Assembly (NCBI GenBank): GCA_017408825.1
Contig: JAFQTX010000002.1
Coordinates: forward strand, 1-62,212
Direction of reading: 5' to 3'
DNA from: Alistipes sp.
GTDB lineage: Bacteria; Bacteroidota; Bacteroidia; Bacteroidales; Rikenellaceae
DNA length: 62,212 bases
Part shown: one piece after another, positions 1 to 62,212 of the stretch
How positions within the stretch are numbered: the stretch's first letter is position 1
How the letters are laid out: every line of letters starts with the position of its first letter
Position numbers and translations under genes: made by a program
Notes under the pieces: generated by a model
What the model was told of the DNA's origin: nothing
Seen by the model: only the letters and a program-made list of their open reading frames with translations
The model's database searches: none

Positions 1-13
1 TATTTTGTCGTTC

Positions 14-139
14 TTTGCCGTGATAAGTCATTATCTACGTCCGCTAACGAATTATCAATAGCAATGAGCAGTACGTTTTAGTACAGCCCATCGCTATGAA
101 ATTCGCCGAGCGTTGTATCTAATGCCTTCTGACGGCAAA
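14..139 (+). repeat. Structured intergenic element, copy D (divergent)
   Basis: This 126-nt element folds on itself. The outer arms TTTGCCGT (14-21) and ACGGCAAA (132-139) pair, followed by the internal loop GAT/CTG and an AAG/CTT pair. An inner stem joins ATAGCAATGAGC (58-69) with GCCCATCGCTAT (86-97). Its apex is a 4-bp GTAC/GTAC hairpin with the 6-nt loop GTTTTA. The same plan occurs at 3409, 28061 and 36646 with different stem sequences. The gene on its left lies outside the window, so its relation to a stop codon cannot be seen. No known RNA or repeat family is recognised. Confidence 0.7.
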
Positions 140-147
140 ATATGCTC

Positions 148-240
148 GCCCTCAAAATGCTCATTTACGCCGAGTAAACTCCGCTTTTTCGGGCTTCGCA
201 AGCCTAAAACTACATCTTTTTATTCAGCCTGATAACAAAA
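148..240 (+). repeat. Intergenic repeat arm, MITE-free copy
   Basis: This segment runs from the CTCGCCCTCAAA block to the GATAACAAAACGG block and is closely similar to 49261-49552. In that copy, and in the reverse-strand copy at the right end of the window, a 192-bp inverted-repeat element interrupts the sequence after ACATCTTT. The copy here reads straight through from ACATCTTT to TTATTCAG. It therefore serves as the empty site for that insertion. No coding potential is seen. Confidence 0.75.
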
Positions 241-493: not shown

Positions 494-3409
494 ATGCAGA
501 GTAAAGGAATTATTAAGTGGCTGGCAGCGCTCTTAGCGCTCGCTTGCGTCTTCCAGCTCTCGTTCACCTTCGTAACTCGCAAGGTGGAGGCAGATGCTGC
601 GAAGCAGGAGAATCCCCAGGCTTATCTCGATGAGAAGTGGGATGAAGTAGTTTACAACCTCGGTGTGGTGGAGTACACCTACGCTGATTGTAAGAATCGT
701 GAGCTCAACTTGGGTCTTGACCTTAAGGGTGGTATGAACGTCATGCTCGAGATTAAGGCAGAGGACGTTATTCGTGCCAATGCCGAGAGCAAGGGCGCTG
801 TCCGCAAGGATGCAGAGCTCAACGCTCGTATGGAGAAGGCGTTGTACGAGGCGGCTAAGGCTGAGGGTGCTTCAGCAACTGTTGATGCATTCATCGCAGC
901 AAGCAACGCTGAGGACCTCGCTAAGATCTTCAATACCGACGATACAGCAGTGTTGGCAACAGATCTTAAGAACCTCGTAGATGGCTCAGTAAGTGCAGCT
1001 TTCAACGTGTTGCAGAACCGTATCGACCTTCTTGGTGTTACTCAGCCTAACATCCAGCTCGTAACAGGTACAAACCGTATCTCTGTTGAGCTTCCAGGTG
1101 TTAAGGAGCCTGAGCGTGTAGGTAAGCTCCTCGCTTCTACTGCTAACCTCGAGTTCTGGGAGGTATACGAGCGTGCCGACATCAACGATGTTACTGCAGT
1201 GCTCTATGGCGATGACCTCAATGAGGCTGTTCGTGACTACCTCGATGATAATACCAATCTTACAGAGGAGGAGATTGCTGCTAAGTTGCCACGTCAGCTG
1301 ATCCATGCATCGTACACAGTAGTGACTGACAAGGGTGAGTCTGTTCAGCAGTATGTATCGGCTCCTTACGTAGGTGTTGCTGATAAGGAGAACATCGATA
1401 TGCTTAACGAGTACTTCAGCCTTCCTGCTATCAAGGCGTTGTTCCCTGCTGAGCTTGAGCTTGCTTGGTCAAATAAGAGCGTGAATAACAGCTCTAAGGG
1501 TGAGTACTTGCTCTACGCTTTGCGTGGTGAGAATGGTATTGCTGCTCCTGTGTTGGATGGTACAGGCATCACCAACTCTCGTGCTCAGGGTGGCCAGAAT
1601 GGTGGCTTCGAGGTGTCAATGTCTATGGACCGTGAGACCTCTATCAAGTGGGCAGAGATCACTGAGCGTAATACTGATAAGTTGATCGCTATCGTGTTGG
1701 ATGGCTATGTATACTCAGCACCTAAGTCTAACGGCCGTATCGATGGTGGTCAGTCATCTATCACTGGTGGCTTCGACGCTCAGGAGGCTGAGGACCTTGC
1801 AAGTGTGCTTAACTCTGGTAAGGCTCCAGCACCTGCAACAATCATCTACTCAGAGGTTGTAGGTCCATCACTCGGTGCTAAGGCTATCAAAGATGGTCTT
1901 GTGTCGTTCGCTCTTGCCTTCTTGCTCGTGTTGGTATACATGGCATTCTTCTACAAGGGTGCTGGTATGATGGCAAACATCGCCCTCCTGTTCAACGTAC
2001 TCTTGCTCATGGGTGTACTTGTGTCGTTTGGTGCAGTATTGACACTCCCAGGTATCGCAGGTATCGTGCTTACAATGGGTATGGCTGTGGATGCTAACGT
2101 CATCATCTTCGAGCGTATTAAGGAGGAGCTTCGTGCCGGCAAGGGTCTTTCGTTGGCTATCAAGGATGGTTTCTCTAACGCTTACTCAGCAATTATCGAC
2201 GGTAACCTTACCACAATCATCACTGGTATCGTTCTCTTCTTCTTCGGTACAGGTCCAGTGAAGGGCTTCGCTACAACATTGGTTGCTGGTATCCTCACAT
2301 CGTTGTTCTGCTCGATCTTCATCACTCGTGTATTGCTCGAGGCACGTGCTACACGTAAGGGCTCTATCTCGTTCTCTTCGAAGCTCACTGAGAACTTCTT
2401 GCAGAATGTTAAGTTTAGCTTTATCTCTAAGCGTAAGATTTCGTACATCGTATCAGGTGTACTCCTTCTTCTTTCAGTAGTATCGTTCTTCACCCTCGGT
2501 CTTAACCGTGGTATCGACTTCACTGGTGGTCGTACATATGTTGTTAAGTTCGACCAGACTGCTGATGAGGATGCTCTCCGCAAGAACCTTGGCGAGCAGT
2601 TTGCACAGATTAAGGATGCTGCAAACACCTCATTTGAGGTTAAGCAGTTTGGTGGCGAGGATCAGGTGCGTATCATCACACAGTTTGAGCCTACAGCCGA
2701 GATGATCGCTGAGGCTAAGGCTGCTGCAGGTGCTAATGCTGAGGATATCGACGCAAACTACATCGTTGCAAACTATATCTACGAGGCATCTAAGGATCTC
2801 TACTCAACAGCTATCGACCGTGAGGCCTTCATCAATCCAGATAATGGTAAGGGTATCACCTCATCGGAGCAGGTGGGTAGCGCTATCTCAAGCGAGATGA
2901 CAACAAACTCAATCATCGCCGTTGTTATCTCACTCGTAGCTATCGGTCTCTATATCGCAGTACGTTTCCGCCGTTGGCAGTGGGCACTCGGTGCTACCGC
3001 AGCTTTGGCTCACAACGCACTCTTGGTAATTGGTCTATTCTCAATGCTCTATGCCGTTATGCCTTTCAACTTGGAGGTTAATCAGGCATTCATCGCTGCG
3101 ATCTTGACCATCATCGGTTACTCAATCAACGATACTGTGGTTATCTTCGACCGTATCCGTGAGTATATCGGTCTCTATCCAAAGCGTGATATGAAGACAA
3201 ATATCGATTCGGCTATCTGCGCTACATTGTCACGTACGATCAATACTTCGGGTACTACTCTTGTTACTCTCCTCTCGATCTTTATCTTCGGTGGTGAGAC
3301 TATCCGTGGTTTCGTATTTGCATTGATCCTCGGTGTTATTATCGGTACCTACTCTTCAGTATTTATCGCTACGCCTATTGCATATGATCTTCAGCGCAAG
3401 AACAAGTAA
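494..3409 (+). CDS. secDF: Protein translocase subunit SecDF (fused)
   Basis: Inner-membrane SecD and SecF are joined in one 971-residue chain, the usual Bacteroidota form. They use the proton gradient to pull SecA/SecYEG substrates out on the periplasmic side. One N-terminal membrane segment (about 8-27) precedes the large periplasmic P1 region. Five segments at about 465-620 close the SecD half and include the motif DANVIIFERI near 530. The SecF half begins near 650, carries GIDFTGG near 674 and ends with five segments including INDTVVIFDRI near 875. The ATG at 494 follows a good promoter. The gene stands alone; secA is 7 kb downstream on the other strand. The TAA stop is shared with the first base of a structured repeat element. 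Confidence 0.97.
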   Translation: MQSKGIIKWLAALLALACVFQLSFTFVTRKVEADAAKQENPQAYLDEKWDEVVYNLGVVEYTYADCKNRELNLGLDLKGGMNVMLEIKAEDVIRANAESKGAVRKDAELNARMEKALYEAAKAEGASATVDAFIAASNAEDLAKIFNTDDTAVLATDLKNLVDGSVSAAFNVLQNRIDLLGVTQPNIQLVTGTNRISVELPGVKEPERVGKLLASTANLEFWEVYERADINDVTAVLYGDDLNEAVRDYLDDNTNLTEEEIAAKLPRQLIHASYTVVTDKGESVQQYVSAPYVGVADKENIDMLNEYFSLPAIKALFPAELELAWSNKSVNNSSKGEYLLYALRGENGIAAPVLDGTGITNSRAQGGQNGGFEVSMSMDRETSIKWAEITERNTDKLIAIVLDGYVYSAPKSNGRIDGGQSSITGGFDAQEAEDLASVLNSGKAPAPATIIYSEVVGPSLGAKAIKDGLVSFALAFLLVLVYMAFFYKGAGMMANIALLFNVLLLMGVLVSFGAVLTLPGIAGIVLTMGMAVDANVIIFERIKEELRAGKGLSLAIKDGFSNAYSAIIDGNLTTIITGIVLFFFGTGPVKGFATTLVAGILTSLFCSIFITRVLLEARATRKGSISFSSKLTENFLQNVKFSFISKRKISYIVSGVLLLLSVVSFFTLGLNRGIDFTGGRTYVVKFDQTADEDALRKNLGEQFAQIKDAANTSFEVKQFGGEDQVRIITQFEPTAEMIAEAKAAAGANAEDIDANYIVANYIYEASKDLYSTAIDREAFINPDNGKGITSSEQVGSAISSEMTTNSIIAVVISLVAIGLYIAVRFRRWQWALGATAALAHNALLVIGLFSMLYAVMPFNLEVNQAFIAAILTIIGYSINDTVVIFDRIREYIGLYPKRDMKTNIDSAICATLSRTINTSGTTLVTLLSIFIFGGETIRGFVFALILGVIIGTYSSVFIATPIAYDLQRKNK

Positions 3410-3536
3410 TTTCTTGTGATAAGGGGTCATTCTCGGCCCATCCCAAAACTAAACCACCGCAGGCTGTACGCTTCAGTACTATCCTGCGGTGGTTTCTTTT
3501 GCGATAGACCAAGCCTAACCCCTTCTGACAAGAAAT
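3409..3536 (+). repeat. Structured stop-codon-associated element, copy A
   Basis: The element starts on the last base of the secDF TAA. Outer arms ATTTCTTGT and ACAAGAAAT (3528-3536) pair. A GAT/CTG internal loop follows, then AAGGGGT pairs with ACCCCTT. A 13-bp inner stem joins 3451-3463 (AAACCACCGCAGG) to 3483-3495. Its apex is a GTAC/GTAC hairpin (3466-3479) with the loop GCTTCA. Linkers GGCCCATCCCAAAA and CTTTTGCGATAGACC are nearly identical to those of copy B at 36646. It may also terminate secDF transcription, but the inner stem is not followed by a long T-run. Confidence 0.8.
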
Positions 3537-25158: not shown

Positions 25159-25189
25159 CCGACAGCCAACAGCGCCAACGCCACAGCGA

Positions 25190-25380
25190 CCGAAACTACG
25201 ACGTGATACCCGACCTCTTAATGGTCTTATGGCCCTAACGGTCTTAAAAAGACAATTAAGACCTCTAAGACAATTAAGATGGTTACGGCCGGGACTGCGA
25301 CGTGATACTCGACCTCTTAATGGTCTTAATGGTCCTAACGGTCTTAAAAAAGACCTTTAAGACAATTAAGATGGTTACGT
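25190..25380. repeat. Two tandem copies of the GGTCTTAAT/GATGGTT unit
   Basis: Two successive copies of about 110 bp, each with GTGATACCCGACCTCTTAAT, a run of 9-nt GGTCTTAAT-type units, then AGACAATTAAGATGGTTACG. Related blocks occur at 45230-45520 and, reversed, at 61150-61420. Confidence 0.7.
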
Positions 25381-25433
25381 CTTACACCCCGAGAGATTCA
25401 TCGTTACACTAAGAATGACATATACTATCATAT

Positions 25434-27348: not shown

Positions 27349-28062
27349 ATGGCAGGAAAAGTTCCAACTCCACATATCGGAGCACAGTATGGCGAGATCG
27401 CCGATAAGGTAATTATGGCAGGCGATCCTTTGCGAGCTAAATTTATGGCCGAGAACTTCTTGGAGAACCCCGTGCAGTATAACAACGTGCGTGGTATGCT
27501 CGGCTTCACGGGTACATATAAGGGCAAGCGTGTGTCGGTACAGGGCCACGGTATGGGTATCCCTTCAATCGGCATCTACACCTACGAGCTCTTCAACTTC
27601 TACGACGTGAAGCGTATCATACGTTGTGGCTCGGCAGGTGCTTACCACCCAGACCTTAAACTCGGTGACGTGGTATTTGGTATGGGCTCGTGCACCGATT
27701 CAAACTATGGTGCGCAGTTCAACCTTCCTGGTACTTTTGCACCTATCGCCGACTTCGAGCTCCTACGCTCGGCAGCAGCTAAGGCCGAGGAGCTTAACAT
27801 CCCATATAAGGTGGGTAACATCCTCGCCAGCGATGTCTTCTATGGCGACGATGCTGAGAACTGGAAGCAGTGGCAGAAGATGGGCGTGCTTGCAGTAGAG
27901 ATGGAGGCCACGGCACTCTATATGAACGCTGCACGTGCCGGTAAGAGTGCACTATGCATCTGTACAATATCTGATTCGTTGGTACACGGCACTGCTTGCT
28001 CGGCTGAGGAGCGACAGACGTCGTTTACAAATATGATGAAGATTGCCTTCGACATCATTTAA
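27349..28062 (+). CDS. deoD: Purine-nucleoside phosphorylase, DeoD type
   Basis: Phosphorolysis of purine (deoxy)nucleosides to base and (deoxy)ribose-1-phosphate in purine salvage. The 237-residue length fits the hexameric bacterial type. Seen are the N-terminal [20 protein letters not shown] with the subunit-bridging His, [13 protein letters not shown], the phosphate loop RCGSAGAY near 88, EMEATALY near 182 for ribose binding, and ISDS near 206 for the base. Single gene. Its TAA is shared with the start of structured element C. Confidence 0.95.
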
Positions 28063-28188
28063 TTTCTTGTGATAGTGGCGCTACTTCGCCACCTCAATCA
28101 TTGGGCTGAATGGAAAATACACCCGAGTATGTCCCATCCAGCCCAACTCTTAATCGGCGGCAAATTAGCGCCACTCTGACAAGAAATT
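28061..28188 (+). repeat. Structured stop-codon-associated element, copy C
   Basis: This 128-nt element begins within the deoD TAA. Outer arms AATTTCTTGT and ACAAGAAATT (28179-28188) pair, then the GAT/CTG internal loop, then AGTGGCGCT with AGCGCCACT. The inner stem pairs 28101-28113 with 28134-28146 (CCATCCAGCCCAA). The apex is ATAC-ACCCGA-GTAT (28117-28130), where the other copies have GTAC-N6-GTAC: the first base pair has changed on both sides. The linkers differ from copies A and B. Confidence 0.75.
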
Positions 28189-28233
28189 TAGGGAGGTGTC
28201 ACATCCTGGCTTTCTCGTGTCAGCGCCACTGCT

Positions 28234-28258
28234 GCACCACTCTGACAAGAAATTTAGA
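28234..28258 (+). repeat. Partial duplicate of the element C right arm
   Basis: CACCACTCTGACAAGAAATT repeats the end of element C about 70 nt downstream without a matching left arm. Sequence between 28189 and 28233 shows no other feature. Confidence 0.55.
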
Positions 28259-28285
28259 GGGGGCTGATTAAAAAGTGTTCTAATG

Positions 28286-28330
28286 AACTTAGGGAATTTA
28301 GGGAACTTAGGGAATTTAGGGAACTTAGGG
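28286..28330. repeat. 9-bp minisatellite AACTTAGGG/AATTTAGGG, five units
   Basis: Five 9-bp units alternate AACTTAGGG and AATTTAGGG. GGG triplets fall at exact 9-nt spacing (28292, 28301, 28310, 28319, 28328). It lies about 100 nt after element C. The remaining bases to the aldehyde dehydrogenase ATG hold nothing recognisable. Confidence 0.85.
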
Positions 28331-28424
28331 ACTATCCTTAAATTCCCTAATCTTTCTGAAATTACTCTCTTCACCTTGAACCCTACCTGTACCCCTCAGC
28401 CTATAACCTTTCATCGCTCGCAGT

Positions 28425-34427: not shown

Positions 34428-36647
34428 ATGGATCTATTTATAGTTATCACCCTCGCACTTCTTGCGATAATGGGTATCATCGTAGGCGTTTCGAACGATG
34501 CCGTGAACTTCCTCAACTCTGCATTTGGTTCAAAGGTAGCCAGCAAAAATGTCATACTCTCGGTAGCTGCTGTTGGCGTAATGGTGGGAGTAATGACCTC
34601 GAGTGGTATGATGGATGTGGCACGTAGTGGTGTCTTCTATCCCGATAAGTTTAGCTATCAGGAGATTATGATTTTGTTCCTGGGTATGATGCTCTCGAAT
34701 ATCATCCTTCTTGATATCTACAACTCGCTGGGATTGCCAACCTCGACAACAGTGTCGTTGGTATTCGGATTGCTCGGATCGGCACTGGCCTTGGCGCTAT
34801 ATAACGTCTGGGGTGGAGACACAACATACAGTATTGGCGAGTATATCAACTCTGCAAATGCCTTAGGTATTGTCTCTGGTATTCTACTCTCCGTGGTGCT
34901 GGCATTCTTCACCGGACACCTGCTGATGTATATCTCACGAATAATCTTCTCGTTCCGCTACACCAAGCTCTTCAATCGTTTCGGTGCGCTGTGGTGCGGT
35001 GTCACTGTTGCGGGTATCATCTATTTTACGGTGTTCAAGGGCCTTAAGAGCTCGGGTATCATCCCTGAGGAGCTGATAGCATTTGTCAATGACAATACTA
35101 CTATCTCGCTCATCATCCTCTGGGCAGGTAGTAGCCTCTTGCTGTGGATACTCCAGCGTTTGAAGGTCAATATCTTGCGTGTGTCGATCCTTGCGGGAAC
35201 CTTCTCGCTGGCGTTGGCATTTGCGGGTAACGACCTTGTGAACTTCATCGGTGTACCATATGCTGGCTACGACTCATATATGATTGCTCGGGCTGCTGAC
35301 GCACCTATTGAGTCTATGTCGGCATTGGCAAACCCTACACAGGCAAACTTCTGGATTATGTGTGCCGCAGGTCTGATTATGGGTGTCACGCTCTTCACCT
35401 CGAAGAAGGCTATGCGTGTTATCGAGACCGAGCGTAAACTATCGTCGCAGAGCGAGGAGGCACCTACCGACAGCGAGGCTACGATGGCCTCACGAGGTAT
35501 TGTGCGTGGTGCTCGTGCCCTCAACGATGGCCTCGCCACAATAACCCCTAATAGCGTTAAGAATTTCATAAACAGCCGCTTCGAACCCCTCTCGGAGGAG
35601 GAGCGTGGCGATGTGAACTACGACCTTATACGTGCTACGGTGAACCTCACAGCAGCGGCCATTCTCATCTCGATAGGTACACAGCTTAAGCTGCCACTAT
35701 CTACTACCTACGTAGTATTTATGGTGTCGATGGGTACATCGTTGGCCGATAGAGCGTGGGGTCGTGAGAGTGCCGTGTACCGCATTACGGGTGTTACAAC
35801 CGTGATTATGGGATGGTTTATCACTGCCGTGGGAGGTTTTATCATTGCCCTGGGTGTGACACTCATACTTGCCTATGGTGGTAACATAGCCATTATTGTT
35901 GTGACGCTCATCTGTTTGGGCCTTGTCATCAAGAGCAACTTCAAGAAGGGTAAGCCCGAGAAGGAGGCTGAGGCCTCGGCAGTAGCAAAGATTGGCGATA
36001 CCCTCAAGCAGAGCCCTGAGGAGGCCCTTATAGCCTACACCGAGCAGGTATGTTCGTCGATGGAGAGGGTGACAGTAATCTACGACCGAACAATCGTTGC
36101 TGTGTTCAAGGAGAACCGTAAGGTACTCAAGGATATGGTGCGTGAGGCCGAGGAGTTCTACCAATATACACGCCAGCAGAAGTATGAGATTATGCCTCTG
36201 TTGCGCACGTTGCAGGATAGCGATGTGAGCACCGGCCACTACTATGTGCAGGTTGTGGACTACATCTCGGAGACAAGTAAGGCGCTGTTGCATATCACAC
36301 GCCCCTGTTACAAGCACGTGGACAACAACCATACAGGACTCTCGAAGGAGCAGGTGTACGACCTTAAGCGTATCAACGACCGTGTGGAGGAGATCTTCGG
36401 CGAGATTAACACCATGCTACGCACACGCTCGTTCAATAACATGGAGCTCGTGCTCAACAAGCGTGACGAGATGTTCGATCTTATCGACGAGGTGATGCAG
36501 AACCAGCTACGCCGTCTACGAGACACCGGAGGCTCATCATCTGCTAATATGCTCTTCTTCAACATCCTTACCGAGACAAAGACTATGATCTTGCACTCGA
36601 GAAATATTATGAAGTCGTTGGAGCATTTTGTGGACCAGAAACAGTAA
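34428..36647 (+). CDS. PiT-family inorganic phosphate transporter with PhoU-like tail
   Basis: Integral membrane Pi symporter of 739 residues when started at ATG 34428; a TTG at 34404 overlaps the promoter and is rejected. The two PiT signature repeats are visible as GVSNDAVNFLNSAFG near 18 and, in the second half, NDLVNFIGVPYAG near 267. About ten membrane helices end near 505. A soluble region of about 220 residues follows (MERVTVIYDRTIVAVFKEN onward), predicted helical and PhoU-like, as often found in Bacteroidota. The divergent two-component system is likely its regulator. The TAA stop is shared with the start of element B. Confidence 0.93.
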   Translation: MDLFIVITLALLAIMGIIVGVSNDAVNFLNSAFGSKVASKNVILSVAAVGVMVGVMTSSGMMDVARSGVFYPDKFSYQEIMILFLGMMLSNIILLDIYNSLGLPTSTTVSLVFGLLGSALALALYNVWGGDTTYSIGEYINSANALGIVSGILLSVVLAFFTGHLLMYISRIIFSFRYTKLFNRFGALWCGVTVAGIIYFTVFKGLKSSGIIPEELIAFVNDNTTISLIILWAGSSLLLWILQRLKVNILRVSILAGTFSLALAFAGNDLVNFIGVPYAGYDSYMIARAADAPIESMSALANPTQANFWIMCAAGLIMGVTLFTSKKAMRVIETERKLSSQSEEAPTDSEATMASRGIVRGARALNDGLATITPNSVKNFINSRFEPLSEEERGDVNYDLIRATVNLTAAAILISIGTQLKLPLSTTYVVFMVSMGTSLADRAWGRESAVYRITGVTTVIMGWFITAVGGFIIALGVTLILAYGGNIAIIVVTLICLGLVIKSNFKKGKPEKEAEASAVAKIGDTLKQSPEEALIAYTEQVCSSMERVTVIYDRTIVAVFKENRKVLKDMVREAEEFYQYTRQQKYEIMPLLRTLQDSDVSTGHYYVQVVDYISETSKALLHITRPCYKHVDNNHTGLSKEQVYDLKRINDRVEEIFGEINTMLRTRSFNNMELVLNKRDEMFDLIDEVMQNQLRRLRDTGGSSSANMLFFNILTETKTMILHSRNIMKSLEHFVDQKQ

Positions 36648-36776
36648 TTTTCGATTATAAGGCCGCATCTGCGGCACATCCCAAAAAGTAAGAGACCTCG
36701 GGCTGTACGCTACAGTACTATCCCGAGGCCTCTTCTTTTGCGATGCACCACAACTGCGACCTTCTAATCAAAAATT
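36646..36776 (+). repeat. Structured stop-codon-associated element, copy B
   Basis: This 131-nt element begins inside the transporter's TAA. Outer arms AATTTTCGATTATAAGG and CCTTCTAATCAAAAATT pair, and the U/C mismatch seen in the other copies is kept. The inner stem joins 36691-36702 (AGAGACCTCGGG) and 36722-36733 (CCCGAGGCCTCT). The apex GTAC-GCTACA-GTAC is at 36705-36718. Linkers GGCACATCCCAAAA and CTTTTGCGATGCACC match those of copy A although the stems differ. GGGTCGGGGAGGGG follows directly. Confidence 0.8.
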
Positions 36777-36842
36777 GGGTCGGGGAGGGGTTTCAGGGAG
36801 GATAGGGATGATGGGGACGATGGGGATCACTATCCATAAACT

Positions 36843-36882
36843 CCCCAGTATCCCCAGCATCCCCACTATCCCCAGTATCCCC
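36843..36882 (-). repeat. 9-bp minisatellite with five regular G4 tracts
   Basis: CCCC tracts at 36843, 36852, 36861, 36870 and 36879 have a perfect 9-nt period. On the minus strand this is five GGGG runs with 5-nt spacers, a strong G-quadruplex-forming pattern. It lies about 65 nt after element B. Confidence 0.85.
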
Positions 36883-36885
36883 AGT

Positions 36886-36990
36886 TTAGGACCATTAGGA
36901 CCATTAAGACCAATAAGACCATTACGAGGTCGGGTATCACATTGTTGTCTCGGCCGCTGTTACTCTCGTCCGCAACCGTCTTAATCTCTT
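36886..36990 (-). repeat. GACCATTAG 9-bp units and GGTCGGGTATCAC block
   Basis: AGGACCATT units with 9-nt spacing run into TTACGAGGTCGGGTATCAC and then a block with CCGCAACCGTCTTAATC. It belongs to the family found near 3.6, 20.7, 25.2, 45.3 and 61.2 kb. No gene is seen between 36777 and 37009. Confidence 0.6.
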
Positions 36991-44812: not shown

Positions 44813-44889
44813 GGTGCGTTAGTTCAGCTGGTTAGAATACGTGCCTGTCACGCACGGGGTCAGGGGTTCGAGTCCCCTACGCACCGCCA
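44813..44889 (+). tRNA. tRNA-Asp (GTC)
   Basis: A 77-nt cloverleaf with acceptor GGTGCGT/ACGCACC, D stem GTTC/GAAT, anticodon stem CGTGC/GCACG with anticodon GTC at 44847-44849, T arm GGGGTTCGAGTCCCC, discriminator G and an encoded CCA (44887-44889). Its last 24 nt are duplicated 260 nt downstream. Confidence 0.97.
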
Positions 44890-44970
44890 ATTTAAGACAA
44901 CAAAGCCACTCAGCAGAGTGGCTTTTGTTTTTGTGTGTTGGGCTCTATGAGCAAGCTCATAGCCCAACAC
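44866..44970 (+). repeat. Direct repeat, copy 1 (tRNA-Asp 3' end and downstream)
   Basis: A 105-bp segment starting at GTTCG of the tRNA T arm and running past the terminator to CCCAACAC. Copy 2 at 45126-45230 differs at two positions by eye. It carries the stem GGGCT-C-TATGAGC/GCTCATAGCCC as well as the terminator. Confidence 0.95.
44902..44930 (+). terminator. tRNA-Asp terminator
   Basis: AAAGCCACTC, loop AGCA, GAGTGGCTTT, then a T-rich tail. A second copy of the same hairpin (loop AACA) lies at 45162-45190 within the duplicated segment. Confidence 0.9.
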
Positions 44971-45125: not shown

Positions 45126-45230
45126 GTTCGAGTCCCCTACGCACCGCCAATTTAAGACAACAAAGCCACTCAACAGAGTGGCTTTTGTTTTTGTGTGTTC
45201 GGCTCTATGAGCAAGCTCATAGCCCAACAC
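45126..45230 (+). repeat. Direct repeat, copy 2 (orphan tRNA-Asp 3' end)
   Basis: This repeats 44866-44970, including 24 nt of the tRNA 3' end with CCA, the terminator and a second hairpin, without the 5' part of the tRNA. The 155 nt between the copies contain a small GCCTCGC/GCGAGGC hairpin (44982-45000) and no credible ORF. The arrangement looks like the two sides of a past tRNA-targeted insertion, or a simple duplication. Confidence 0.9.
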
Positions 45231-45234
45231 CGAG

Positions 45235-45520
45235 ATTGAGACAATAAGCGACAATAAGACAATTAGGACCAGTAAGACAATTAAGATGGTTGCGGCAAAA
45301 GCACCAACGGCCAACAGCGCCAGCGGCCGAAACAACAGCGTGATACCCGACCTCGTAATGGTCTTATGGTCCTAATGGTCTTAATGGTCCTAAAAAAAAT
45401 AAAGACAATTAAGATGGTTGCGGCAGGTAGCGCAAACAGCCAGTGGCCGAAACAACAGCTGATACCCTACCTCGTAATGGTCTTATGGTCTTAATGGTCC
45501 TAATACTCCTAAAAGAATTG
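45235..45520. repeat. Tandem GGTCTTAAT/GATGGTTGCGG repeat block
   Basis: Two copies of a unit of about 125 bp: 9-nt GACAATTAA-type units, GATGGTTGCGG, a GCCAACAGCGCCAGCGGCCG stretch, GATACCCGACCTCGTAATGG. It is closely related to 25190-25380 and, reversed, to 61150-61420. No gene is seen from 45231 to 45693. Confidence 0.7.
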
Positions 45521-49260: not shown

Positions 49261-49552
49261 CTCGCCCTCAAAGTGCACATTTACGCTTAGTAAACTCCGC
49301 TTTTTCGGGCTTCGTAGGCCTAAAACTACATCTTTTTAGAAGCTGTTTGGATTTTATTTCGAGATTATTTGAGAGCTAATTTCGTGTAAATTTTCATTTG
49401 GGGTATGCAGGTAATAGTGGACTATTTCCAATTATCACAAATGAAAAGTTGCCGAAAAGAGCCTCAAAGAAGCCGAAACTATCTTTTGCGGCAACGAACA
49501 AACTCTTTCAATAAAATTCAAAACAGCTTCTTATTCAACCTGATAGCAAAAC
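49261..49552 (+). repeat. Intergenic repeat arm interrupted by a MITE-like element
   Basis: The two outer parts (49261-49338 and 49528-49552) match 148-240 without a gap. The middle is the 192-bp inverted-repeat element. A hairpin GGACCACTC/GAGTGGTCC follows at 49553-49576, at the place where copy 1 has a different hairpin. The rest of the region to 50144 shows no credible gene; the short frames there have no family resemblance. Confidence 0.8.
49339..49530 (+). mobile_element. 192-bp MITE-like element with 3-bp TTA duplication
   Basis: Terminal inverted repeats begin GAAGCTGTTT at each end and extend imperfectly over about 28 bp. TTA flanks the element on both sides. The related locus at 148-240 has a single TTA and no insert. 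A second copy in reverse orientation starts at 62073. No transposase is encoded. A 3-bp TNA-type target duplication would fit mobilisation by an IS5/IS1031-like transposase, which is inference. Confidence 0.85.
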
Positions 49553-49576
49553 GGACCACTCCCCAGAGAGTGGTCC
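49553..49576. terminator. Hairpin GGACCACTC/GAGTGGTCC
   Basis: A 9-bp perfect stem with loop CCCCAGA region follows the repeat arm's AAAACGG end. It has the same relative position as the hairpins at 241-274 and 62016-62053 but an unrelated sequence. Confidence 0.65.
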
Positions 49577-61149: not shown

Positions 61150-61420
61150 ATGGGTTACTATTAAGACCATTAGGACCATTAAGACCATAAGACCATTACG
61201 AGGTCGGGTACCACGTTGGCTGTTTGCGCTGTTGGCCGTTGGTGCTTTTGCCGCAACCATCTTAATTGTCTTCTGTTTATGACCATTAAGACCATTAGGA
61301 CCATAAGACCATTACGAGGTCGGGTATCACGCTGTTGTTTCGGACGTTAGTGCTGTTGGCCGTTGGTGCTTTTGCCGCAACCATCTTAATTGTCTTAATT
61401 GTCTTACGGTCTCATTGTCT
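61150..61420 (-). repeat. Tandem GACCATTAG / GGTCGGGTATCAC block, reverse copy
   Basis: Two copies of a unit of about 110 bp: 9-nt GACCATTAA/GACCATTAG units, CATTACGAGGTCGGG, a TGGCCGTTGGTGCTTTTGCC stretch, GCAACCATCTTAATTGTCTT. It is the reverse complement of the blocks near 45.3 and 25.2 kb. Confidence 0.7.
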
Positions 61421-61485
61421 TTAATGCGGCTCAGTCTGAAAATTATGTAGAATATTCCAAGCTCTAAGGTAGCCACTTGCTATGC

Positions 61486-61753
61486 GGGTATACTTTTATA
61501 TACCCATGTGGTGAGAGTGTTTCTCGAGCCCAAGGTGCTGTGTAAGTCGTGGGTATACTTTTATATACCCGTGTGGTGAGGAATATTTGGCCGCACCCCA
61601 AAGTAATGCGGGTATTATTTTTAATACCCGTGCGGTGAGGGAAAATAGTTGGTCGCAAACCAAAGTAATGCGGGTATTATTTTTAATACCCGCGTGGTGG
61701 AGGGGAATAGCTGGTTGTACCCACGTGTGATGTGGGTATTATTTTTAATACCC
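61486..61753 (+). repeat. Five-unit hairpin array, about 62-bp period
   Basis: Palindromes lie at 61486, 61551, 61610, 61672 and 61734. The first two read GGGTATACTTTTATATACCC. The last three read GGGTATTATTTTTAATACCC, a compensated change in the stem. Each is followed by a GTGTGGTGAGG-like block. Spacers are similar to each other, so this is a tandem repeat and not a CRISPR array. Between 61754 and 61973 only a CGAGAGATT..AGAATGACG block (61858-61890) related to the 25.4-25.56 kb repeats is seen. Confidence 0.85.
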
Positions 61754-61973
61754 GTGTGGTGAGGAGGGGTAGGTGGATTCGTTCGAGGGGGTGGAGTATT
61801 GTGGGGCATACATAGCATTAGCGAAGGATCTGTGGGATAGTAAGTCTGCTTCACGCTCCGAGAGATTCTTCGCTAAAGCACAGAATGACGTTCGGTGGAA
61901 GAAAAGGGGGATTAAGAGATTAAGGATAATCACTAAACTAAGTTCCCTAAACTCATTAATCACTCCCCAGCCC

Positions 61974-62002
61974 AATTTCTTGACAGAAGGGGTTAGGCAT
62001 GG
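61974..62002 (-). repeat. Truncated copy E of the structured element
   Basis: On the minus strand this reads GCCTAACCCCTTCTGTCAAG then AAATTGGG, nearly identical to the right arm and tail of copy A. No left arm is found. It is followed on the minus strand by GGGAG and TTAGGGAAC units like those after copy C. Confidence 0.65.
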
Positions 62003-62015
62003 CCACGATTAAGAG

Positions 62016-62053
62016 AACGGAGGTGACTAAAAAGTTAATTAGTCACCTCCGTT
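62016..62053. terminator. Hairpin with CTAATTAACTTTTTAG apex, reverse copy
   Basis: AACGGAGGTGA pairs with TCACCTCCGTT. On the minus strand the apex is the same as at 241-274. It lies between element E and the repeat arm. Confidence 0.65.
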
Positions 62054-62072
62054 TTGTTATCAGGTTGAATAA

Positions 62073-62212
62073 GAAGCTGTTTTGAATTTTATTGAAAGAG
62101 TTTGTTCGTTGCTGCAAAAGATAGTTTCGACTTCTTTGAGGCTCTTTTCGGCAACTTTTCATTTGTGATAATTGGAAATAGTCCACTATTACCTGCATAC
62201 CCCAAATGAAAA
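62073..62212 (-). mobile_element. MITE-like element, second copy (cut by the window end)
   Basis: This begins GAAGCTGTTTTGAATTTTAT after TAA and is the reverse complement of 49391-49530 with few differences. It sits in the same type of repeat arm (62054-62072), the other end lying beyond the window. Two copies at matching positions could mean one insertion event followed by spread of the composite repeat. Confidence 0.85.

Follow-up and report, generated by a model that had tools for sequence, protein, structure and literature searches.

The window analysed here, the whole stretch of 62,212 nucleotides (nt) at positions 1 to 62,212 of contig JAFQTX010000002.1 from the Alistipes sp. assembly GCA_017408825.1, contains four copies of a hairpin element of approximately 130 nt, three of which begin on the TAA stop codon of the preceding gene. 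An earlier note, made from the sequence alone, had described these four copies and an ordered plan of stems; positions and plan were both borne out, as were the apical GTAC/GTAC pairing in copies A, B and D, the ATAC/GTAT pairing in copy C, and the linkers shared by copies A and B. Elements of this family are dispersed in one genus and in a second family within its order, the Bacteroidales. Those of the window, with bit scores from a covariance-model search and stop codons taken from the list of open reading frames (ORFs) and the sequence, are:

11..142, plus strand: copy D, forming the core of a larger palindromic repeat and cut off upstream by the contig start; 93 bits
3407..3538, plus strand: copy A, hairpin 3' of secDF; stop-anchored, supplying the secDF TAA; arms AATTTCTTGT/ACAAGAAAT(G), loop GAT/CTG, better-paired strand minus; 108 bits
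3407..3409, plus strand: stop codon TAA of secDF, the left end of copy A
28060..28189, plus strand: copy C, hairpin 3' of a phosphorylase-superfamily gene (mtnN/deoD-like); stop-anchored; inner module TTGGGCTGAATGG...CCATCCAGCCCAA, differing from the module of the other copies; 128 bits
28060..28062, plus strand: stop codon TAA of the phosphorylase gene, the left end of copy C
28211..28252, plus strand: second copy with an internal deletion, in tandem 3' of copy C (TTTCTCGT...ACAAGAAA; from the sequence, by eye)
36645..36777, plus strand: copy B, hairpin 3' of a PHO4/PiT transporter gene; stop-anchored; arms AATTTTCGAT/ATCAAAAATT, loop TAT/CTA; 104.4 bits
36645..36647, plus strand: stop codon TAA of the PiT gene, the left end of copy B
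61974..61998, minus strand: fragment from the right end of a copy (plus-strand sequence AATTTCTTGACAGAAGGGGTTAGGC), from the repeat-pair comparison

The ORFs ending at 3409, 28062 and 36647 encode SecDF (PF02355), a member of the phosphorylase superfamily (PF01048, PNP_UDP_1) and a PHO4/PiT transporter (PF01384), respectively, and their ends confirm that copies A, C and B start on the TAA of the preceding gene. The labels secDF and PiT given earlier to two of these genes hold, while deoD is only one possibility for the third. Copy D has the core of the family, as had been proposed, but falls outside the stop-anchored set and represents a subtype of its own with fixed flanks, present in 10 copies in the window's own genome. 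This subtype is the core of a larger palindrome, approximately AGGCTGAATAAAAAG...CTTTTTATTCAACCT, both ends of which are visible, with small changes, in 4 of the 10 copies (C3, C13, C16 and C30). The composite palindrome occupies window positions 1-230 and recurs at loci L239, L259, L265, L266, L268, L269, L273, L288 and L290, and several contigs of the own genome (G000) terminate in it.

The plan of stems described earlier was retained, with the outer stem corrected to about 10 bp (10-11) around a 3x3 mismatch loop. The sequence of this stem is variable and its arms are matched; the loop inside it is conserved, reading GAT/CTG on the gene strand and CAG/ATC on the other. Further inwards lie a long stem that covaries and a tip with conserved TAC...GTA. 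Full-length covariance-model matches measured approximately 115-134 nt. Folded as plus-strand RNA, the window copies gave z-scores of -6.6 (D), -9.0 (A), -10.4 (C) and -8.4 (B), and none of 200 shuffled sequences was as stable.

The family proved to be far larger than the four copies first described. The exact outer pattern TTTCTTGTGAT...CTGACAAGAAA occurred 12 times in the own genome and never in the reversed control. A covariance model built from 16 copies (A2/R1), at a threshold of E<=0.01, produced 148 rows in this 1.89-Mb draft, and removal of 23 opposite-strand doubles left 125 same-strand copies, for 123 of which the sequence was retrieved. Model E-values are rough, copies are not independent, metagenome-assembled genomes (MAGs) are incomplete and ORF calls are mechanical; in the searches of 41 relatives, of 61 genus genomes and of 295 genomes from across the order, match counts per genome are lower bounds and were scored with stricter filters. 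Among the 41 relatives, 14 matched (the own genome among them), all within the genus, and in that search no match came from the 16 genomes that represented other families of the order; 36 of the 61 genus genomes matched at E<=1e-10, with at most 56 copies counted per genome. An exact-pattern scan of named genomes returned at least 117 stretches, and the 80 listed were all titled Alistipes sp. or Rikenellaceae bacterium (MAGs), most of the titles naming ruminant or deer gut. A model of the antisense strand (R2, E<=1e-5), run across the 295 genomes, matched two among the candidates listed, the own genome and G268, which belongs to another family of the order; 2 of 13 genomes of that family matched, with 12 and 7 divergent copies. 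The earlier note had recognised no published family. In agreement with this, the single match in the window at Rfam gathering score was tRNA-Asp, permissive Rfam searches of the elements returned weak sub-gathering matches only, mostly to microRNA hairpins, and no paper describing the family was found in a literature search whose coverage excluded most subscription journals. An origin from phage was set aside, the exact pattern (one pattern only) having no matches in viral contigs.

The fixed place at stop codons, noted at first for three copies, was supported. The 123 own copies comprised 10 of the D type, 33 standing behind another copy and 80 remaining; among the latter, a sense stop codon (ORFs of at least 60 codons) lay within -12 to +13 nt of the outer stem in 78, compared with 7 of the 123 copies when the same test was applied to the opposite side. 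Of the copies within this range, 80 in number and two of them also belonging to arrays, 51 had an offset of 0, 6 of +10 (a TGA contributed by the element), 5 each of -3 and -4, and 4 of -1, with other values in fewer; stops at offset 0 were TAA in 50 cases and TGA in 1. In a second set of 136 distinct exact-pattern copies, 12 of which were from the own genome (ORFs of at least 100 codons), 108 were in range on the sense side (68 at offset 0) and 2 on the other side, the remainder consisting of 18 without a usable upstream ORF and 10 lying further off. In the second family, 15 of 19 copies stood in stop range. When filled gene ends were identified by a loose pattern in loci L061-L177 and the window, 45 were co-directional and 36 convergent, and TAA was the stop at 69 of 81 ends with a copy compared with 339 of 566 without. 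Joints such as TAA+TAATTT, TAAT+TAATTT and TAGATG+TAATTT show a TAA borne by the element itself, as do joints within arrays (for example AAAAATC+TAATTTTCG), and a TGA-TAA or TGA-TAG pair often stands in the element's next frame. In two species of the second family, orthologous acyltransferase-like genes (L317 and L321) end in KDL*, coded by the left arm and the TGA.

Whether a given orthologous gene end holds an element differs between species. The secDF gene was matched in 59 of 61 genus genomes, and among 30 loci fetched only that of the own genome carried an element; the others, judged by eye, mostly had the stop followed by a hairpin and a T run. The SecDF C-termini (translated by eye) read ...DLQRKNK* in G000, ...DLQRKKASKLTE* in G022 and ...DLQRKNAIKESNDAE* in G017, and tail, stop and terminator stem all differ. 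At the PiT gene, an element follows EHFVH* in G017, where the protein C-terminus is shortened (by-eye translation), and EHFVDQKQ* in G000, while G022 has EHFVDETK* and a terminator. The phosphorylase gene was matched in 40 of 61 genomes; of 30 loci fetched, 6 had intact-looking copies of differing types after the TAA (L208, L209, L210, L214, L215 and L219, by eye), one had a nested copy (L222) and two had remnants (L211 and L212), with none elsewhere apart from possible older remnants at L216 and L217. Separately, gene ends L202 and L220, which have no full element, carry a short hairpin with an element-like tip, CATACGC..AAGTATG (by eye). In the second family, G268 has CAAAGTTTG directly after the stop, which is the arm sequence of the filled site in G360, and the terminator behind is common to both; the G268 site may be an unfilled site or a remnant. 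This pair of close relatives, of ambiguous polarity, showed no clear direct duplication, and a search for empty relatives of a second-family gene found matches in 10 of 13 genomes, only one of them a close relative. A simple purpose-made scan detected terminator-like signals at 3 of 39 co-directional ends with an element compared with 37 of 114 without. The consensus downstream of the hairpin (53 flanks) starts TTGGGTCG, with no regular T run; by eye, its conservation is mostly gone past about 11 nt and no shared promoter is evident, no promoter scan having been run.

Which strand folds was read from the mismatches. The plus strand had been taken earlier as the folded one, but the minus, or antisense, strand pairs better. 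In 97 own copies (D type included, both wobble types scored equally), the gene strand held 521 A.C and 100 G.T oppositions, with A.C more frequent in 92 copies, G.T in 1 and neither in 4. After deduplication (0.9 similarity, by a text matcher), 48 own copies had 237 A.C and 49 G.T over all aligned positions, divided as 70:10 in the inner, 147:19 in the middle and 20:20 in the outer segment; the eight outer-stem positions alone gave 62 A.C and 4 G.T (89 copies, not deduplicated). Isolated mismatches, flanked by Watson-Crick pairs on both sides and counted under mismatch-neutral scoring, numbered on the antisense strand 161 G.T versus 14 A.C in the 48 own copies (D type included) and 174 versus 13 in 56 deduplicated copies from other species, so that A.C exceeds G.T on the gene strand by 11-13 to 1. 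Base composition, which accounts for a ratio of 1.3 only, was rejected as the cause. Mean RNA folding energies for the 48 own copies were -52.6 kcal/mol (sense) and -68.0 kcal/mol (antisense), and the antisense strand was lower in 46 of the 48 (47 of 48 with DNA parameters), in 56 of 56 copies from other species and in 19 of 19 of the second family; for copy A, a near-unbroken antisense hairpin of -78.4 kcal/mol compares with -59.2 kcal/mol for the sense strand. A region-wide strand bias was rejected on two controls: antisense was lower in 26 of 46 stretches taken from the 220 nt behind the elements (no bias) and in 17 of 51 gene bodies (a slight opposite lean). From the wobble asymmetry and the antisense energies together, the better-kept structure is therefore that of the template (antisense) strand.

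The covarying stems proposed in the earlier note were recovered. When 16 copies were aligned as sense strands, 19 of the 31 pairs had changed on both sides; in an antisense alignment of 20 copies (A4), 25 of 37 pairs had done so, and none of 500 shuffles attained any of five covariation measures, figures that lean upward because the alignment itself supplied the structure and the sequences are related. Paired cells made up 94.7% of A4, compared with 83.3% when it was read as sense and 78.5% in shuffles, and pairing dropped to 43-47% when the alignment was slid by 1-3 columns. One U.G pair was kept in 18 of the 20 sequences. The outer stems are varied, with 39 distinct stems among 89 own copies (among the common ones TTTTCGAT, 15 copies, and TTTCTTGT, 12 copies), and distinct arms paired at 0.82 with their own partners versus 0.61 with arms of other stems. 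In the second family (16 of 19 copies), variation extends over the six outermost positions, where pairing is 0.62-1.00 compared with 0.32-0.77 in shuffles, and at position 7 it falls to 0.12. In the window's genus (134 copies), pairing beyond TTTCTTGT stayed above shuffles for 2-3 positions and was at chance from position 4, single positions further out being above chance as expected among many tests. A sharp arm end, at about 10 bp, is thus present in both lineages. Copies form tandem arrays, nest and recombine: in the second copy at L010, a left half of one type and a right half of another meet at the tip, and L222 holds a copy within a copy, with arms GCTTGGCGT/ACGCCAAGC. The first copy at L003 is a perfect palindrome save for the GAT/CTG loop and the tip, and because the loop persists in a copy otherwise perfectly palindromic, this suggests that the mismatch loop matters.

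The reading that we favour, with a probability of roughly 0.45, is that of a non-autonomous mobile hairpin active as its folded template strand, most likely as single-stranded DNA (ssDNA), and settling at gene ends in the place of the terminator. Among the three options raised in the earlier note, a mobile hairpin at gene ends fits best, and an mRNA 3'-end structure as the selected object is not supported, because the wobble pattern favours antisense pairing. Selection or copying would keep the antisense strand paired if the unit moves, or is recognised, as that folded strand, which would most likely be ssDNA bound by a putative recombinase or transposase reading the 10-bp arm and the mismatch loop. 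Settling at gene ends may be either targeted or simply harmless there, with the element bringing a TAA and an in-frame TGA-TAA/TAG pair, and the resident copy would then replace the terminator that was lost. Stems could stay matched while modules shuffle through gene conversion between copies and through repair templated on the arms.

Several observations weigh against this reading. The wobble asymmetry vanishes in the outermost 12 positions (20 A.C and 20 G.T, with the flank T.G of TAA...TTG counted), the bias over all positions (237:49) is weaker than that among isolated mismatches, and the sense strand folds better in 2 of 48 copies. Tolerance of G.T fits ssDNA and antisense RNA alike, and a strand-specific mutation bias within the hairpin may mimic part of the signal. 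There is little deficit of terminator-like signals at convergent ends (9 of 32 with an element versus 34 of 96 without), and neither a clean target-site duplication nor an insertion between nearly identical strains was seen. A partner enzyme was not found among the three kinds searched for, which left DDE transposases, other HUH enzymes and gene-content comparison outside the search. The REP-type transposase suggested earlier as a partner (Y1, PF01797) was found in none of the 61 genus genomes, including the 26 at least 90% complete (detection in controls 5 of 14), and the integron integrase (TIGR02249) in none of the 61 above its 265-bit cut-off; weak TIGR02249 matches below it occurred in 61 of 61 genomes and also in 14 of 14 controls, which is what generic tyrosine recombinases would be expected to give. 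Reverse transcriptase (RVT_1) was detected in 21 of the 61 without tracking the elements and was not found in the element-rich genomes G011, G017, G021, G022, G054, G067, G072 and G075, and was rejected as a partner on these counts.

The strongest rival, which we nevertheless regard as unlikely, would have the element act or move as an antisense RNA ending ...AAUUA-3' that pairs with the gene's TAA and is copied by target priming, or serves as a regulator. The preservation of G.U-type pairs on the antisense strand, including the U.G pair in 18 of 20 sequences, is what such an RNA would show, and a 3' end complementary to TAA would account for the fixed joint. Set against these are the many element-rich genomes without a detected reverse transcriptase and the short conserved flank, mostly gone past about 11 nt and with no promoter evident by eye (no promoter scan). 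Filled ends are co-directional and convergent alike (45 and 36), and therefore offer no common source of antisense transcription; convergent transcription was rejected as that source.

Slightly more doubtful is a double-strand miniature inverted-repeat transposable element of the ERIC or YPAL kind, moved by a DDE transposase, with the hairpin and the placement at stops as by-products of tolerance. Size, palindromy, copy number and the filled and empty sites all resemble those of ERIC and YPAL, as these are described in PMC2229807. A double-strand mechanism predicts unbiased wobbles, however, whereas the bias among isolated mismatches is 11-13 to 1; in place of one fixed repeat, the outer ends carry variable matched arms, and a target-site duplication has not been established.

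We consider it improbable that the elements are mRNA 3' structures (stabilisers, processing sites or ribosome-termination structures) selected gene by gene. The sense orientation at stop codons, the scarcity of terminators at co-directional filled ends and a sense strand that still averages about -53 kcal/mol would all suit such a role, and stable structures immediately 3' of stops are described as widespread under the name RTS (PMC7518266). The sense fold is nonetheless the poorer one in 46 of 48, 56 of 56 and 19 of 19 copies; the sites themselves turn over from one species to another, and copies are mosaic and dispersed. Intrinsic terminators of unusual form, finally, are very improbable and were rejected, for although the elements stand at relatives' terminator positions (secDF and PiT), the hairpin has no regular T run behind it (consensus TTGGGTCG, 53 flanks).

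Returning to the mobile template-strand hairpin, a more far-reaching form of it is put forward only tentatively. The elements could belong to an undescribed mobile system in which a dedicated factor, recognising the 10-bp arm together with the 3x3 loop, sets template-strand hairpins (ssDNA, or target-primed antisense RNA) at stop codons and makes the right arm a reverse complement of the left one, gene ends being rebuilt genome-wide, stop and terminator included. There is a real chance that the way of movement is new. If the reading is right, many transcription units in one lineage of gut bacteria end in a mobile hairpin that displaces the terminator and carries the stop codon with it. A simple test for the working strand of a dispersed palindrome is provided by the strand-specific wobble signature, which here contradicts what a sense-RNA reading assumes. 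In the search for the enzyme, one can now look for a gene that element-rich genomes of the genus share with the second family and that element-free relatives lack.

Other repeats lie near the elements or elsewhere in the window. Behind many elements stands a second long hairpin of short tandem units, GGGGATTATGGGGA.../...CCCCAGTATCCCC or TTTAGGGAA.../TTCCCTAAA, found in the window at 36790-36885 and 28270-28350, within the 220 nt that showed no strand bias (26 of 46). Dispersed intergenic GACCATTAAGACC / GAGGTCGGGTATCACG repeats occur in both orientations (25184-25390, 36885-36972, 45235-45503 and 61158-61406), and five units at 61484-61765, spaced by 59-65 nt, each carry a hairpin of the GCGGGTAT...ATACCCG type. 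Inverted repeats of 165 nt (98% complementary) at 49391-49555 and 62048-62212, the latter at the contig end, are perhaps the ends of a repeated mobile element. A 105-nt direct repeat (98% identical) lies at 44866-44970 and 45126-45230; its first copy starts within a tRNA-Asp gene (44813-44889), and the repeat may be an attachment-site duplication.

Among known systems, the RTS signals share with the elements a stable structure right behind the stop codon, and are favoured at operon ends according to PMC7518266. They are a general signal of the sense mRNA, unlike the present dispersed repeat family, in which the sense fold is the poorer.

The attC sites of integrons follow the cassette gene and carry the box motif RYYYAAC/GTTRRRY. 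The present elements are attached to fixed housekeeping genes and not to cassettes, and by eye they have no such boxes, their ends reading AATTTCTTGT.../...ACAAGAAATT and variants; with the integrase in none of 61 genomes above cut-off and the R-box core not found, membership was rejected. PMC2727003 and PMC6393395 describe attC as folding from the bottom strand into two stems, separated by an unpaired central spacer and followed by a terminal structure, with little conservation of sequence. The folded bottom strand and the central unpaired 3x3 loop are similar here, a likeness in the way of working only.

REP, BIME and REPIN sequences are palindromes behind genes that form hairpins and mosaic arrays in many copies, and the present family resembles them in all of these respects. 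Membership of the REP/RAYT system was rejected, since Y1 was found in none of the 61 genomes searched and the unit of approximately 115-134 nt is outside the 20-40 bp given for REPs in PMC3733652.

As a kind, the family is nearest to the ERIC and YPAL miniature mobile palindromes, and De Gregorio is said to have placed YPAL, in 2006, close to stop codons and terminators. According to PMC2229807, ERIC/IRU (127 bp) and YPAL (about 167 bp) are palindromic mobile repeats of enterobacteria, YPAL with filled and empty sites and a possible effect on upstream transcripts and ERIC with an effect on transcript stability; like the present elements, they are miniature, non-autonomous, long stem-loops of about 100-200 bp in many copies. 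The present family differs in belonging to another phylum, in stems that are rewritten yet matched, and in the better fold of the antisense strand. It is set apart from those descriptions also by the variable arms of about 10 bp, the stop codon within the unit and a duplication not established, and ERIC-type fixed terminal inverted repeats are replaced here by 39 outer stems among 89 copies and, in the second family, by variation over six positions. In its anatomy, the element would appear to work most like an attC site or a REP hairpin, that is, as a single-stranded substrate marked by mismatches.

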